Below, in pieces: positions 55,430 through 61,581 of a stretch of DNA of 64,000 nt. The notes below the pieces were generated by a model that made no database searches, was not told the origin of the DNA, and saw only the letters and a list, made by a program, of their open reading frames with translations. A program made the position numbers and the translations under genes. The DNA lies in the NCBI RefSeq assembly GCF_038404985.1, contig NZ_JBBKBA010000001.1, forward strand, positions 2,570,001 through 2,634,000. The letters run 5' to 3'. Within the stretch, counting starts at the first letter, position 1. Each line of letters starts with the position of its first letter. The DNA comes from Ferrovibrio sp. MS7 (GTDB lineage Bacteria > Pseudomonadota > Alphaproteobacteria > Ferrovibrionales > Ferrovibrionaceae).

Positions 55430-55545
55430 GCCATTCCTCCCGTCAGACGTTGCCAAAGCTTATGCCGGGTTTCCTCATGGTCGACAAGGGCGAGGGGGGA
55501 TTCTAGTCTGCTGCCAAAGCCTTAGCTAAAGACTCAGGAGGAACC

Positions 55546-55872
55546 ATGCTGCTCGATGTGCGCACCTATACCTGCCGGCCCGGCCGCCTGAAGCCGCAGC
55601 TCGATCTCTACGAGAAGCTCGGTTTTGCGGCGCAGAAGCGCCATCTCGGCGAACCGCTGGCGTTTCTGGTCACCGAGAGCGGGCCGCTCAATACCTATGT
55701 GCATATCTGGGTCTACGAGAATGCCGGCGACCGCGAGAAGAAGCGTGCTGCGATGCTGGCCGATCCGGAATGGCAGGCCTTCATCGCCGCCTCGGCGGCG
55801 GAGGGCAATCTGGTGGCGCAGGAAACCAAGCTGATGAACCCGGCGTCCTTCGCGCCGATCAAGCGGAGCTAA
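55546..55872 (+). CDS. NIPSNAP family protein
   Basis: 108-aa protein with the NIPSNAP/dimeric alpha-beta-barrel pattern: LLDVRTYTCRPGRL, YEKLGFAAQKRHLG, YVHIWVYENAGDREKKRAAMLADPEWQAF. Function is generally unknown; bacterial members often sit next to catabolic enzymes. RBS GGAGGA lies 4 nt before the ATG. It is followed 6 nt later by the TPP enzyme, so the two are one unit. Confidence 0.9.
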   Translation: MLLDVRTYTCRPGRLKPQLDLYEKLGFAAQKRHLGEPLAFLVTESGPLNTYVHIWVYENAGDREKKRAAMLADPEWQAFIAASAAEGNLVAQETKLMNPASFAPIKRS

Positions 55873-55878
55873 GGCGTT

Positions 55879-57561
55879 ATGAGCAAGCGTACCGGCGGCC
55901 AGATCCTGGTCGAACAATTGCGTATCCAGGGTGTCGAGATGGCCTTTGGCGTGCCCGGCGAGAGCTACCTCGCGGTGCTGGATGCCATGCATGACCATGC
56001 CAATGCCATGCGCTACGTCATCTGCCGCCAGGAAGGCGGCGCGGCGATGATGGCCGATGCCTATGCCAAGCTCACCGGCAAGGTCGGCGTCTGCATGGTG
56101 ACGCGCGGCCCCGGCGCCACCAATGCCTCCGCCGGCGTGCATGTCGCCTTCCAGGATTCGACGCCGATGCTGTTGCTGATCGGCCAGGTCGGGCGCGACA
56201 TGATCGAGCGCGAGGCGTTCCAGGAAATCGACTACCGCCGCATGTTCGGCCAGATGGCGAAATGGGTGGCGCAGATCGACGATGCCTCGCGCATTCCGGA
56301 ATATATCAGCCGTGCCTTCTCGGTGGCGCAATCGGGCCGCCGTGGTCCGGTGGTGCTGGCGCTGCCCGAAGACATGCTGACCGAACTGGCGGAAACCGCC
56401 GACGCGCCGCCGGTGAGCGTGCCGGAAGCGCATCCCGGCCCGGAGGACATGCAGCGCTTCAAGGCGATGCTGGAAAAGGCCGAGCGGCCGCTGCTGATTG
56501 TCGGCGGCGGCGGCTGGAGCGAGGCCCTGCGGCTTGAAACCCAGGCTTTCGCCGAGGCTGCCGGCCTGCCGGTGGCGCCGGTTTTCCGCCGCCAGGACTA
56601 TATCGACAATGACTGGCCGAACTATGTCGGCGAGATCGGCATTGGTCCCAATCCGAAATTGGCCGAGCGGGTAAAGAATTCCGATCTGCTGATCGTGCTG
56701 GGCGCGCGGCTGGGGGAGATGACCACCGGCGGTTACACGATGTTCGGCATTCCGCGCCCTAATCAGCCGATGGTGCATATCCATGCCGGTGCGGAAGAAC
56801 TCAACCGCGTCTACCAGGCCGACCTGGCGATTCAGGCATCCTCGCGCGCCTTCATCGCGGCGGCGCGCAAGCTCGGGCCGATCGATGGCAGCCGCTGGGC
56901 CGCGCAGGTGAAGCAGGCGCGCGCCGAATACGAAGCCTGGCAGCAGCCGACGCAGTCGCCGGGTCCGGTGCAGATGTCGGAGATTGTGCGCTGGCTGGCG
57001 GCCAATACGGCGGCCGATACGGTGGTGACCAATGGTGCTGGCAACTACGCCACCTGGGTCCATCGCTTCCACCGCTACCGCCGCCATGGCGGCCAGTTGG
57101 CGCCGACCTCGGGCTCGATGGGCTATGGCCTGCCGGCGGCGGTGGCGGCCAAGCTTGCGGCGCCGGACCGCACCGTGATCGCCTTTGCCGGCGATGGCTG
57201 CATCCAGATGACGATCCAGGAATTCGCCACCGCACGCCAGCATGGCGCCAATATCATCGTGGTGGTGATGAACAATGGCATGTACGGCACCATCCGCATG
57301 CATCAGGAACGCGAATACCCGACGCGGGTGAGCGGCACCGAATTGTTCAATCCGGATTTTGCCGCTATTGCGCGCGCGTATGGTGGCCATGGCGAAATCG
57401 TCGAACGTACCGAGGATTTCGGTCCCGCCTTCGAGCGGGCGCGGCATTCCGGCAAGCCGGCGATCATCGAGGTGCGGGTGGACCCGGAGGCGCTGACGCC
57501 GCGCGCTTCCTTGAGCCAGATCCGCGAAACCGCGATAAAGGCGCATCACAGCCAGCGATAG
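55879..57561 (+). CDS. Thiamine pyrophosphate-dependent enzyme, acetolactate synthase-like
   Basis: 560-aa three-domain ThDP enzyme. Catalytic Glu in ICRQEGGAAMMADAYAKLTG, middle FAD/NAD-type domain, and the ThDP/Mg site GDGCIQMTIQEFATARQHGANIIVVVMNNGMYGTI. Overall it looks like the large subunit of acetolactate synthase, glyoxylate carboligase, oxalyl-CoA decarboxylase and relatives. No ALS small subunit is near, so it is probably a decarboxylase or lyase of uncertain substrate rather than biosynthetic ALS. Confidence 0.88.
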   Translation: MSKRTGGQILVEQLRIQGVEMAFGVPGESYLAVLDAMHDHANAMRYVICRQEGGAAMMADAYAKLTGKVGVCMVTRGPGATNASAGVHVAFQDSTPMLLLIGQVGRDMIEREAFQEIDYRRMFGQMAKWVAQIDDASRIPEYISRAFSVAQSGRRGPVVLALPEDMLTELAETADAPPVSVPEAHPGPEDMQRFKAMLEKAERPLLIVGGGGWSEALRLETQAFAEAAGLPVAPVFRRQDYIDNDWPNYVGEIGIGPNPKLAERVKNSDLLIVLGARLGEMTTGGYTMFGIPRPNQPMVHIHAGAEELNRVYQADLAIQASSRAFIAAARKLGPIDGSRWAAQVKQARAEYEAWQQPTQSPGPVQMSEIVRWLAANTAADTVVTNGAGNYATWVHRFHRYRRHGGQLAPTSGSMGYGLPAAVAAKLAAPDRTVIAFAGDGCIQMTIQEFATARQHGANIIVVVMNNGMYGTIRMHQEREYPTRVSGTELFNPDFAAIARAYGGHGEIVERTEDFGPAFERARHSGKPAIIEVRVDPEALTPRASLSQIRETAIKAHHSQR

Positions 57562-57643
57562 ACGGGTTTCGACCACGTAACAGTGATCACGTTTCGGGCG
57601 GGAAGCGCAGGTTTTCCCGCCCGCTTTCGTGTAGGCTAAAACC

Positions 57644-58885
57644 ATGGTTGCACTTGAAACTCCCGCCAATGATCCCGGCTCCCTGGATGCTTGGCTGCTG
57701 AAGGCCGGCCTGCGCGGTGATGCGGTGGACGACCTGCTGGCCGGTTTTTGCCGCCGGCTGGAAGCCGAGGATTTCGCGCTGACCCGTGTGCATGTCTCGC
57801 TGGCGGCCCTGCATCCGCTGATCCGTGCACGCTCCTTCACCTGGCTGCGCGACCAGGCCGGGATCGGCAACGAAGAGATGCCGCACCGCGCGCCTCAGGA
57901 TGAAACCCAGGCTTGGCTCGAGAGTCCGTTCCGCTACATGCTGAGCAATGACGTGCGCTGCCTGTATCGGCGCCTGACGGGGCCGCAGGCGCAGCTTGAT
58001 TTCCCGGTGCTGCATGAATTCGCCGCCCAGGGCGCCACTGACTGGCTGGCGCATGCCTTTGGCTTCGGTTGGTCGCTGGAGCATCTGCCGATGACGCCGC
58101 GCATGGCCGAGATCGGCATGATCTGTTCGATGACTACCGACCGCCCGAGCGGCTTCCATGCCAGCGAGAAGGCGAGACTTGCCGCTTTGCTGCCGCTGCT
58201 GGCGCTGGCGATCAAGGCGACCGTGCAGATGGCCACCACGCGCGATGTGATGGCGGCCTATCTCGGCAACGATGCGGCGCGTCATGTGCTGTCCGGTGAT
58301 ATTCGCCGCGGCATGGCGCACCGTATCGAGGCGGCGATCCTCTATGCCGATCTGCGCGGCTTCACGGCGCTTGCCGACCGGCTGGCGATCGAGCCGCTGG
58401 TGGAGACGCTGAACGCCTATTTCGACTGCCTGGGACCGGCCATCGCGGCGGAAGGCGGGCAGGTGTTGAAATTCCTAGGCGATGGCCTGCTGGCCAGTTT
58501 CCAGCCGGAAGCGGAAGCACCGATTGATGCTGCCCGGTTTTGCCAGGCGGCCTTGCGTGCAGCCAAAGCCGGCCTGGCGGCGGTGGAGCGCTTGAATGCC
58601 GAGCGTGCCGCGAAGGGGCTGGATTGCCTGCAACTGGATATCGCCCTGCATCTCGGTGACCTGATGTATGGCAATGTCGGCACAGCCGACCGGCTGGATT
58701 TCACCCTGATCGGGCCGGTGGTGAACGAAGCCGCCCGCATCGAGAATCTCTGTGGTGCCCTGGACCGCAGCCTGCTGGCTTCGGATAGCTTTGCCTTGGC
58801 AGCGGGGTCGAAGAGCGGCCTGGCCTCGCTTGGCCGTCATGCCCTGCGCGGCGTGGCCGAACCGCGCGAGATTTTCGGCCTCTGA
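57644..58885 (+). CDS. Class III adenylate/guanylate cyclase
   Basis: 413-aa cytosolic nucleotide cyclase. Residues about 215-390 form the catalytic domain: AAILYADLRGFTALADR with the first metal Asp, KFLGDGLLASF with the second, and DFTLIGPVVNEAARIE with Asp typical of adenylate specificity. The N-terminal 210 residues are soluble and not recognised as GAF or PAS by eye. It should make cAMP. The upstream gap of 82 bp gives it its own start; no obvious partner gene is adjacent. Confidence 0.88.
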   Translation: MVALETPANDPGSLDAWLLKAGLRGDAVDDLLAGFCRRLEAEDFALTRVHVSLAALHPLIRARSFTWLRDQAGIGNEEMPHRAPQDETQAWLESPFRYMLSNDVRCLYRRLTGPQAQLDFPVLHEFAAQGATDWLAHAFGFGWSLEHLPMTPRMAEIGMICSMTTDRPSGFHASEKARLAALLPLLALAIKATVQMATTRDVMAAYLGNDAARHVLSGDIRRGMAHRIEAAILYADLRGFTALADRLAIEPLVETLNAYFDCLGPAIAAEGGQVLKFLGDGLLASFQPEAEAPIDAARFCQAALRAAKAGLAAVERLNAERAAKGLDCLQLDIALHLGDLMYGNVGTADRLDFTLIGPVVNEAARIENLCGALDRSLLASDSFALAAGSKSGLASLGRHALRGVAEPREIFGL

Positions 58886-58966
58886 TATTGGCGCTCAAAT
58901 AACAGGCTGGTTGACGGGCGATGCGATTTGCGCGAGTTTCAGGTACGCGCCAATTCGCCAGAGCCG

Positions 58967-59386
58967 ATGATCACCTACACCATCCTGCTACCCGCCGAAC
59001 CTGCCACCAGCCCCGAAGGGCTGGCTGTGGCGCAGGAGGTGCTTGAGGCCGCCGGCCGCCGCCACGGTTTCGGGTTTCGCTGGCGCCGCCTTGGCCAGGC
59101 CAAGGCGCAGGATGATATGGCTTGGCGCGGCGACGCGATCCTGGCCGCCGGGCCCGTGGCCCATGGCCATCATGGCGATGTGCCCGTATTCATGCCGCCT
59201 GGCGATGAGGCCGGCCATACGCTCGGGCTGCTCAATGCCGGCGCCCGCATGCTGGCACATCTGGGCCAGGAAGGTGCCGCCCATACCGTCGCTGCCGCCA
59301 TGACTCGTGCCATGGCCGATGAGCACCGCCGACTCAGCCCCTCGCGCCCGCGCCAGATGGGCGCCGCGATCCTGCTGGCAATATAG
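58967..59386 (+). CDS. Miniature isopropylmalate/isocitrate dehydrogenase-like protein
   Basis: 139-aa protein. The first 60 residues (ILLPAEPATSPEGLAVAQEVLEAAGRRHGF, GDAILAAGP) follow the N-terminal beta-alpha unit of isopropylmalate dehydrogenase (where LPGDGIGPEV and the DAVLFG strand lie). The last 70 (FMPPGDEAGHTLGLLNAGARMLAHLGQEGAAHTVAAAMTRAMADE, MGAAILL) follow its C-terminal part (GSAPDIAG, LLRYSL, MGDII). The roughly 200-residue catalytic centre between them, with Lys, Tyr and metal Asp residues, is missing. This reading is by eye. The gene is intact, with no frameshift, so it may be a maintained small protein. Confidence 0.65.
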   Translation: MITYTILLPAEPATSPEGLAVAQEVLEAAGRRHGFGFRWRRLGQAKAQDDMAWRGDAILAAGPVAHGHHGDVPVFMPPGDEAGHTLGLLNAGARMLAHLGQEGAAHTVAAAMTRAMADEHRRLSPSRPRQMGAAILLAI

Positions 59387-59395
59387 TCAAGAGAC

Positions 59396-60568
59396 TCAGA
59401 CTCGCACAAACGAGGCGAGCGGTCGACGTGGTGTCGCAGGGGCCGGTTTATCGCTGTAACCCAGTCGGCAGAACATCTGCACGGTTTCTTCGTCCGGTGA
59501 CGTAGGTGCGGGGCGATTGATCAGTAGCTGATGCGCGCGCGCGTAATACGGCGCCATCTCTGGAAATTCCTGCAGGGCTTGACTCATTGGATGTACTCCA
59601 AGGCCCAATTCTGTCGCCTTGAGTTGAAGCCGCAGATATGCGCGCCCGGCATTGATCTGGTCGATGCGGCGATTTTTTCCACTCAGCCAGACAAAGCCCA
59701 TTGCCGTCTGGCTATGTCCCTCAAATCGACCCATCATTGCTTTGTAAGCTTGGCTGCCTTCCGTCGGCGGCGCACTGCGATCGAACTGCCCCATGGCATC
59801 GAGAGCGCGTACCATCAGGCTATTGATGGATATGCCATCACGATGCTTGAGAATCTCTGTGGGGCCGACCCGTGTGAGATGAATGCTTTCCATGACGGTC
59901 CGCGGGGTAAGCAATTCAACCCGCGCCGACTGCCAGCAAAGCTCTCGAAGTGGCGGCAGGTCCGGCAGGCTAACTGTACCGCCCACCCGAACCGTCTTGT
60001 CGCTCACGCTGGTCATCAGGCTATTCAAGGTATCGACTGAAACCGGGCGACTGACCGAGTAGTTGGATTTCGGCGTATGACGTTTAAGTGCCTGCGCGAA
60101 AAGCGGGTCATTCAATCCGCCGGGCTTAAGCGTGATGCGGGCAATCGGGCGCTGATCCCAATCCTTCAGGTCGGCGCCTAACTCCCCCTGTGGCCATAAG
60201 GCCACCTCCGCGGCGCTGCCTTGCGCTGCTGCCGCTAGCACCAACAGCTCGATGAAGGCGCCATGTCCAATCAAAATCTGGCGGCCGAAGGGATCTGTTT
60301 GCGGCAATACTCTTGTGGTGTCAGTGAAGACGGTAATGACGCCGTCCTCCCTCAGATCAACCAGCCAAGGCTGCAGGTTGTGCGGATTGGGCGCCGTGAT
60401 CGCATAGGCTAGCGCGCGGCGGCGTGGATCGGTCTCATTTTGAGGGCCTTTCCAGGCCTCGACAGCCTGATCCGGGAAGTCGCTGCTTGGCGAGCAACCA
60501 CTCACCGGCATAGTCGCTGCGACGACGATACCGCCGCCTACCAAACGAATGAAATTTCTGCGGTGCAT
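59396..60568 (-). CDS. Tat-exported nitroreductase-family lipoprotein
   Basis: 390-aa protein with a twin-arginine leader (RRNFIRLVGG) and a lipobox-like VSGC near residue 25, so it should be moved folded, with FMN, to the periplasm. The rest resembles nitroreductase-fold proteins of this size: RRRALAYAITAPNPHNLQPW, FGRQILIGHGAFIELL, and LQLKATELGLGVHPMSQALQEF. The substrate is unknown. It is divergent from a LysR gene. Codon use and the lower GC look different from the core genes around it, which is consistent with acquisition. Confidence 0.85.
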   Translation of the reverse strand: MHRRNFIRLVGGGIVVAATMPVSGCSPSSDFPDQAVEAWKGPQNETDPRRRALAYAITAPNPHNLQPWLVDLREDGVITVFTDTTRVLPQTDPFGRQILIGHGAFIELLVLAAAAQGSAAEVALWPQGELGADLKDWDQRPIARITLKPGGLNDPLFAQALKRHTPKSNYSVSRPVSVDTLNSLMTSVSDKTVRVGGTVSLPDLPPLRELCWQSARVELLTPRTVMESIHLTRVGPTEILKHRDGISINSLMVRALDAMGQFDRSAPPTEGSQAYKAMMGRFEGHSQTAMGFVWLSGKNRRIDQINAGRAYLRLQLKATELGLGVHPMSQALQEFPEMAPYYARAHQLLINRPAPTSPDEETVQMFCRLGYSDKPAPATPRRPLASFVRV

Positions 60569-60631
60569 GTTCGACGCTTTCCCAAAGGGTGCAGATAGAT
60601 GCTGGTCATCAGCAGGAACATGCGGCTATTG

Positions 60632-60671
60632 TGCAAAGATAACCCGTCTATCACAATTGGCTATCTTCGCA
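60632..60671. promoter_or_regulatory. Inverted repeat in the nitroreductase/LysR divergent promoter
   Basis: TGCAAAGATA (60632-60641) and TATCTTCGCA (60662-60671) are inverted copies with one mismatch; ATTGTG (60628-60633) and CACAAT (60652-60657) form a second, nested pair. This lies between two divergent genes, the classical position of a LysR binding site. Confidence 0.55.
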
Positions 60672-60687
60672 CTTATGGATTTCATTT

Positions 60688-61581
60688 ATGAATATCTCGT
60701 TTGACTGGTCGCTGGTGCGCTCGTTTCTTGCCGTGCTTGACCACGGCAGCCTGCTGGCTGCCGCGCGTCAGCTTAAATCAAGCCAACCGACCATTGGGCG
60801 ACACGTAGCGGAACTTGAAGCGCAACTCGGGCTGGCGCTGTTTGATAGAACCGGGCGGGGCCTGATGCCGACCGAAGCGGCATTACGCCTTGCGGATTCT
60901 GCGCGTGCCATGCAGAGCGGAGCTGACCAACTTGCTCGCAGTGTCATCGGCTCTGATAAGTCCACATCCGGCACAGTGCGCATCAGTGCCAGTCAGACCG
61001 TTGCCTGCTTTGTCTTGCCGGCCTTGTTGGCACAGATGCGCCAAGCGTTGCCGGACATACAGGTCGAACTGGTTGCCAAAAATTCCGTGAGCAATCTCTT
61101 GAGGCGAGAGGCCGATATTGCGGTGCGGATGGTGCAGCCTGAGCAGGCCAGCATTATCGCGCGCAGGGTGGGTAAGGTGGGGTTGAGAGCCTGCGCTCAC
61201 CAGGACTATTTGCGTCGACGCGGCGCGCCTCGCCATCCGCGCGATCTTCTCGGACACGATCTCATCGGTGGCGACCGCAACGACAGCATCCTCAGAGGCT
61301 TCGCCGCGAATGGTCTTGTGGTCGAGCGAAACAATTTCGCATTTCGAACGGATGACCTGATCGCGATATGGCAGGCCGTGCGGGCGGGTTTGGGAATCGG
61401 CTTCGTTAGTGAGCTCCTGATCCGCAGCGATCCCTCGGTAATCCCGGTTTTACCGAAACTGAAAATAGAACCGCTGCCGGTCTGGTTGGCGGTTCACAAG
61501 GAGATACGCACCAACAAGCGAATCCGGGCCGTCTATGATTTTCTCTCCGATGCCTTGACCAAGGCGATACACCACAATTAG
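60688..61581 (+). CDS. LysR family transcriptional regulator
   Basis: 297-aa regulator. N-terminal winged HTH: SFLAVLDHGSLLAAARQLKSSQPTIGRHVAELEAQLGLALFDRTGRGLMPTEA, followed by the two-lobed effector domain (VRISASQTVACFVLPALLAQM). It is divergent from the Tat nitroreductase gene with 119 bp between them and an inverted repeat there, so it probably controls that gene and itself. It is a member of the probable inserted block. Confidence 0.93.
   Translation: MNISFDWSLVRSFLAVLDHGSLLAAARQLKSSQPTIGRHVAELEAQLGLALFDRTGRGLMPTEAALRLADSARAMQSGADQLARSVIGSDKSTSGTVRISASQTVACFVLPALLAQMRQALPDIQVELVAKNSVSNLLRREADIAVRMVQPEQASIIARRVGKVGLRACAHQDYLRRRGAPRHPRDLLGHDLIGGDRNDSILRGFAANGLVVERNNFAFRTDDLIAIWQAVRAGLGIGFVSELLIRSDPSVIPVLPKLKIEPLPVWLAVHKEIRTNKRIRAVYDFLSDALTKAIHHN

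Follow-up and report, generated by a model that had tools for sequence, protein, structure and literature searches.

A probable domain-1-only pseudoenzyme of the isocitrate/isopropylmalate dehydrogenase superfamily encoded behind a class III cyclase gene in Ferrovibrio

The window analyzed here, a 64,000-nucleotide stretch of contig NZ_JBBKBA010000001.1 from Ferrovibrio sp. MS7 (genome size 4.58 Mb), carries at 58967..59386 on the plus strand a short gene, hereafter the mini gene, whose ORF, selection pattern, homology and predicted structure mark it as a likely stand-alone domain-1 relative of the tartrate/D-malate (isocitrate/isopropylmalate-type) dehydrogenases. The ORF runs from an ATG at 58967 to a TAG ending at 59386 (the coordinates include the stop codon) and encodes 139 aa; because the frame is also open upstream, where a TTG at 58928 could serve as start, the start codon is uncertain. 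Based on alignment and secondary structure, residues 1–59 (58967..59143, plus strand) were assigned to the N-terminal half of domain 1 and consist of a strand, a helix, the strand LEAAxRRxGFGFRWR, a second helix and the strand DAIL, with the GDGIG motif absent. Residues 60–139 (59144..59383, plus strand) were assigned to the C-terminal half from alignment, substitutions and secondary structure; they form mainly three helices, including GARMLAHLGQEGAA and MGAAIL, and lack HGSAPDI. The join of the two halves was placed near 59144, where the gene varies most.

Upstream on the same strand lies a gene for a class III adenylate/guanylate cyclase of 413 aa (57644..58885; Pfam PF00211, E 3.5e-8, and synteny), the stop codon of which is 81 bp from the mini gene. 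The N-terminal region of the cyclase (∼220 aa) has no Pfam match, and its catalytic domain matches the PADLOC Pycsar cyclase models (PycC), matches that we think stem from the cyclase domain common to both. In the window a TPP-dependent, PRK08199-type enzyme (55879–57561) precedes the cyclase, with a terminator-like stem of 11 pairs (57595–57623) between the two genes. No terminator-like site was found in the gap between the cyclase and the mini gene, although the scan is weak evidence because it returned 4 sites where 2.3 were expected from shuffles; it returned no promoter-like site. A long open frame of 778 aa at 55534–57870 runs antisense to a likely gene; such frames recur in the genome, which is GC-rich, and are a potential source of wrong gene calls. 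Downstream, the interval 59396–61581 between the mini gene and a cold-shock gene holds an Acg/Rv3131-type nitroreductase-like gene on the minus strand (NF047509, 228 bits versus a cut-off of 199) and a LysR gene. In a second genome of the same species the cold-shock gene follows ∼80 bp behind the mini gene, indicating a strain-level indel of roughly 2.4 kb relative to the window genome.

Orthologues of the mini gene were present in 4 of 10 Ferrovibrio genomes: the window genome (G000), G061 from the same species, and two other Ferrovibrio, G003 and G007. The encoded proteins are 139–154 aa long and are 99% (G061), 45% (G003) and 43% (G007) identical to the window protein; short homologues in relatives, which the initial annotation had proposed to look for, thus exist within the genus. 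Searches beyond it covered several sets. No match at E 0.001 was obtained in 8 genomes from other genera of the family, and at the class level no homologue outside the genus was detected at E 1e-4 among 385 genomes (including its own and three genus mates). At the phylum level no short orthologue was seen among 398 genomes, where the six non-self matches were four full-length enzymes of the tartrate type (TTC-like) and two that by eye seemed due to chance; in the class and phylum searches at most 9 candidates were scored per genome. A genome contig collection contained no relative beyond the same species (Ferrovibrio sp. isolate Gw_Bodden_bin_214, whose protein is 99% identical), and none was found in viral contigs, plasmids, phages, PHROGs or PADLOC, nor did the predicted model match anything at E 0.001 in a viral fold library. 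Several weaker candidates were set aside. A weak match behind the cyclase of G016 and G014 (E 0.09 and 0.26) was discarded as the terminal part of an open frame (352 or 357 codons) that by eye resembles agmatine deiminase, and among the weak first-round matches L004–L009, the translations of L004 and L005 looked unrelated.

Substitutions between orthologue pairs, counted by the Nei-Gojobori method, showed the signature of a protein-coding gene under constraint. The G000/G061 pair differed by 10 synonymous and 1 non-synonymous substitutions (dN/dS 0.033, binomial P 1.2e-5), and the G003/G007 pair by 28.3 synonymous and 20.7 non-synonymous substitutions (dN/dS 0.24, binomial P 8.9e-6 with counts rounded to 21 of 49). 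Between the two pairs dN/dS was 0.37–0.51, at a dS of 1.0–1.4 that is near saturation. For the neighboring cyclase gene the corresponding dN/dS values were 0.025, 0.079 and 0.26–0.30. The 19 codons with non-synonymous changes between G003 and G007 were distributed as 6 in residues 10–24, 1 in residues 25–57, 8 in residues 58–81 (the join region) and 4 in residues 82–154. From the dN/dS values and this distribution, the mini gene is kept yet evolves faster than the adjacent cyclase. A chance ORF in GC-rich DNA, or a gene on the other strand, was ruled out by a six-frame comparison of the substitution pattern: the mini frame was free of stops and had the lowest non-synonymous/synonymous ratio in each pair (0.04 and 0.27), whereas one minus-strand frame also had a low ratio (0.09 and 0.45) but contained two stops per genome. 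In addition, the frame was uninterrupted throughout its length in all four carrier genomes, and the termini and the core strand-helix-strand were conserved across the four mini sequences. We conclude that the mini gene is kept by purifying selection as a protein; the clean, intact frame originally described at this position was therefore confirmed as stop-free and selected, dN/dS being one of the checks that had been suggested for it.

Taken singly, the mini protein resembles the Iso_dh superfamily only weakly. Pfam PF00180 (Iso_dh) gave 12.7 bits (E 0.074), under its gathering cut-off of 27 bits, and matched only two of the four mini family members at all when E-values up to 10 were allowed. 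Against PDB sequences, residues 4–45 matched plant isopropylmalate dehydrogenase chains (E 0.24–0.30; Arabidopsis IPMDH2, E 0.24) and residues 68–127 matched a bacterial isocitrate dehydrogenase (E 0.46). A profile of the four mini sequences searched over the 10 genus genomes yielded 17 non-self matches with E-values from 0.008 to 4, 9 of which (E 0.008–0.21) fell on the same C-terminal stretch of a full-length TTC-like paralogue, one per genome in 9 genomes. In G005 this paralogue ranked below another non-self match, and in G004 the profile missed it. The copy in the window genome, which is intact and located on a different contig from the mini gene, scores as a tartrate dehydrogenase with TIGR02089 (592 bits versus a cut-off of 470); the other eight copies were recognized from their sequence.

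Profile-profile comparison supported the two-ended similarity. The Iso_dh set comprised 29 of 31 loci from Pfam family searches, with L046 (an NADP-isocitrate dehydrogenase) and L092 (truncated) dropped and family matches lacking a locus left out, and the cut points for domain 2 were picked by motif. With domain 2 excised, hhalign aligned both halves of the mini profile to Iso_dh in order, with a probability of 93.5 and a score of 49.0; because pairwise hhalign E-values are uncalibrated, significance rests on 300 column shuffles (mean 13.0, sd 2.4, maximum 21.6), and the reversed profile scored 15.0. The uncut full-length Iso_dh alignment scored 33.3 and was matched only in its C-terminal part. 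The score against eight tartrate-type (TTC) domain-1 sequences was 76.2 (maximum of 500 shuffles, 22.7), with four of those eight rows having themselves been found by the mini profile; identity of the mini protein to the joined domain-1 parts of the eight enzymes was 23–33%. Split by subfamily, the scores were 43.6 for the tartrate type (9 rows), 28.8 for a LeuB-like third group (3 rows, one of them TIGR00169) and 15.3, inside the shuffle range, for the main LeuB group (17 rows), a score that was perhaps lowered because a start-codon rule trimmed the first residues from 11 of the 17 rows. As judged by profile, we favor the tartrate/D-malate dehydrogenases as the nearest subfamily over the main LeuB group, with the trimming of 11 of the 17 LeuB rows as a caveat. 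In a tree of domain 1 the mini proteins formed a long branch between the TTC and LeuB groups, and the parent was not placed.

Predicted structures agreed with the homology. Template-free AlphaFold2 models, each built from four sequences, had a pLDDT of 81 and pTM of 0.78 for the window protein and a pLDDT of 67 and pTM of 0.67 for the G003 orthologue. Among PDB entries, both models matched the isopropylmalate dehydrogenase 5j32 best (window model: Z 14.2, rmsd 3.0, 134 of 139 residues; G003 model: Z 14.1, rmsd 3.1, 148 of 154 residues), in a Z-score comparison that re-ranked Foldseek's own candidates only. All 50 PDB entries listed for each model belonged to the isocitrate/isopropylmalate dehydrogenase superfamily, and the aligned target ranges of both models covered both chain ends. 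With Foldseek alone, TM-scores were modest and a single match (8.1e-4) reached E 0.001 or better, as expected if a large middle part of the target must be skipped. Together, the profile alignment and the models indicate that the mini protein is a member of the isocitrate/isopropylmalate dehydrogenase superfamily by its predicted domain-1 fold, with both chain ends colinear.

In enzymes of this superfamily the two chain ends together make up domain 1, and domain 2, which is inserted between them, holds the substrate, metal and proton-transfer residues as well as most of the dimer contacts. In the full-length paralogue, R104, R130, Y137, K188, D221, D245 and D249, which by motif we take to be the substrate arginines, tyrosine, lysine and metal aspartates, all lie within residues 83–255, the segment without a counterpart in the mini protein; a further LeuB substrate-arginine position falls on K92 of the paralogue. 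Active-site residues described for the Shewanella isopropylmalate dehydrogenase (PMC3282623) served as the guide to these catalytic positions. That source places the dimer contacts in helices g and h, the FG loops and the arm regions (PMC3282623), elements that in our reading fall in the segment absent from the mini protein. Neither GDGIG nor HGSAPDI occurs in any of the four mini sequences, and the region of the cofactor-side loops is shorter and hard to align in them. Alignment near the place of HGSAPDI is uncertain; an APD there in G003 and G007 and an HG in the window protein may be traces of that motif. What distinguishes a tartrate/D-malate dehydrogenase as an enzyme, namely the domain-2 catalytic residues together with GDGIG and HGSAPDI, is thus missing, and on sequence grounds the mini protein appears to be a pseudoenzyme, that is, an enzyme-family homologue without catalytic residues that is selectively kept. 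The initial annotation had described an isopropylmalate-dehydrogenase-like product whose fold seemed to have its N- and C-terminal parts joined and the catalytic centre removed. Both the joining and the removal are borne out by the colinear halves and the missing segment, and the models (Z about 14) are clearly similar to LeuB-type enzymes, so that a lack of structural similarity does not apply; the isopropylmalate label fits the predicted fold, while the profile scores favor the tartrate/D-malate type.

The gene neighborhood provides some information on history. The cyclase was the constant direct upstream neighbor of the mini gene in all four carriers, and it occurred without a mini gene behind it in 6 of the 10 genus genomes, from which it follows that the cyclase does not need the mini gene. 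In the four carriers the TPP-enzyme gene immediately precedes the cyclase, but in G001, G002, G004 and G005 the two are separated by ∼4 to 7.5 kb, and because this distance differs among genomes, the neighborhood was rearranged more than once. The order in carriers is cyclase, mini gene and cold-shock gene, with other genes intervening before the cold-shock gene in the window. The cold-shock gene also follows the cyclase in two non-carriers, at ∼60 bp in G004 and ∼670 bp in G008, so the conserved neighborhood perhaps reflects plain inheritance. In a cyclase tree the four carriers grouped together with a support of 0.877, the outgroup being distant and the root uncertain. The simplest account is a single gain of the mini gene in one lineage; alternatively, it may have been lost in other lineages. 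The large divergence from the tartrate type (23–33% identity) suggests either fast change or a parent from elsewhere.

We consider it likely that the mini gene product is a non-catalytic, domain-1-only pseudoenzyme of the isocitrate/isopropylmalate superfamily, the tartrate/D-malate type being favored. Since the catalytic domain is gone and the gene is selected beside a gene for a signaling enzyme, a former enzyme fold was probably reused for a non-enzymatic job. According to the models, loss of the domain-2 insert would leave a compact alpha/beta domain still able to fold. Without the catalytic residues, GDGIG and HGSAPDI, neither substrate oxidation nor the usual NAD binding would be expected, and the mini protein most likely acts by binding another protein. 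The best candidate for such a partner is the adjacent class III cyclase, of which the mini protein would be an accessory or regulatory subunit, and the two genes may be co-transcribed; gene order suggests this pairing, which we regard as less likely than not. The mini gene would have been gained behind the cyclase in one Ferrovibrio lineage from a full-length dehydrogenase and then have diverged fast. The fuller proposal, that a dehydrogenase stripped to domain 1 is now a dedicated regulatory subunit of the class III cyclase and conveys metabolic state to cyclic-nucleotide signaling in one lineage, is similarly speculative.

Other explanations must be weighed against the pseudoenzyme reading. 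The mini gene could be a decaying remnant of a tartrate or isopropylmalate dehydrogenase whose frame is open by luck, and its fast divergence between lineages and limited range within the genus are what one would expect of a pseudogene. However, the excess of synonymous over non-synonymous changes (10:1 and 28.3:20.7, P about 1e-5 each), the open frame in four of four genomes and the conservation of the termini and core strand-helix-strand make this very improbable. An assembly deletion in a full-length homologue, which had been raised as a way in which the original interpretation might fail, is also very unlikely because the same short form is found in four genomes and an intact full-length paralogue exists elsewhere in the genome. 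The initial annotation had offered either a new small enzyme or a non-enzymatic regulator. A re-invented active site in domain 1 might be sought among the residues invariant in the four sequences (R31, R32, R38, R40, R54, D56, R94, R129 and Q130), but invariance says little with four sequences in two lineages, and because GDGIG, HGSAPDI and every catalytic position that was checked are absent, the enzyme option finds no support and we regard it as highly unlikely. A non-enzymatic regulator, on the other hand, can reasonably be inferred.

Two versions of a non-catalytic role other than that of a cyclase subunit were also considered. In the parent family, part of the dinucleotide site comes from domain 1, and this, together with the position of the mini gene next to a signaling enzyme, raises the possibility of a small-molecule sensor that binds a nucleotide or organic acid through the old cofactor side and feeds the cyclase or another partner. 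Against this stand the absence of GDGIG and HGSAPDI from the four sequences and the shorter, hard-to-align loop region, and we view such a sensor as doubtful. The mini protein might instead partner the full-length tartrate-type dehydrogenase of its own genome in a dominant-negative or chaperone-like manner, given that the mini profile matched such a full-length TTC-like paralogue in 9 of 10 genus genomes. Yet that paralogue is encoded on another contig, and the dimer contacts described for Shewanella isopropylmalate dehydrogenase (PMC3282623) fall, in our reading, in the segment that the mini protein lacks; we therefore think this role improbable.

If the mini protein is indeed a domain-1-only pseudoenzyme, it bears on the general question of whether a host domain can survive alone and take on a new job once its inserted domain is gone. 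The mini gene seems to be a natural experiment of this kind, in which the insert has been lost while what is left is predicted to fold and is retained by selection. As an example of a possible enzyme-to-regulator conversion it is small and testable, and the intact paralogue in the same genome can serve as a control.

Limited word searches of one open literature collection returned no stand-alone domain 1 of this superfamily, and although non-catalytic members of the superfamily are known, to our knowledge none is reduced to domain 1 alone. The tartrate/D-malate dehydrogenases (TIGR02089, within PF00180) have the domain-1 fold and order of elements in common with the mini protein but are about 350 aa long and possess domain 2, the catalytic positions, GDGIG and HGSAPDI, none of which is found in the 139–154 aa mini proteins. 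LeuB, the 3-isopropylmalate dehydrogenase, has the same predicted fold and provides the best structural matches, whereas the mini protein is without its catalytic domain. Like pseudoenzymes generally, the mini protein has lost catalytic motifs and probably has a protein-binding role; pseudoenzymes generally lose active-site residues, however, while here a whole inserted domain is missing. A non-catalytic superfamily member is found in ATPTB3, the isocitrate-dehydrogenase-like subunit of the Euglena ATP synthase (PMC6930080). ATPTB3 resembles our case in being a superfamily member that serves as a structural subunit, but at about 330 residues it keeps far more of the chain, and it is eukaryotic and belongs to an unrelated setting.
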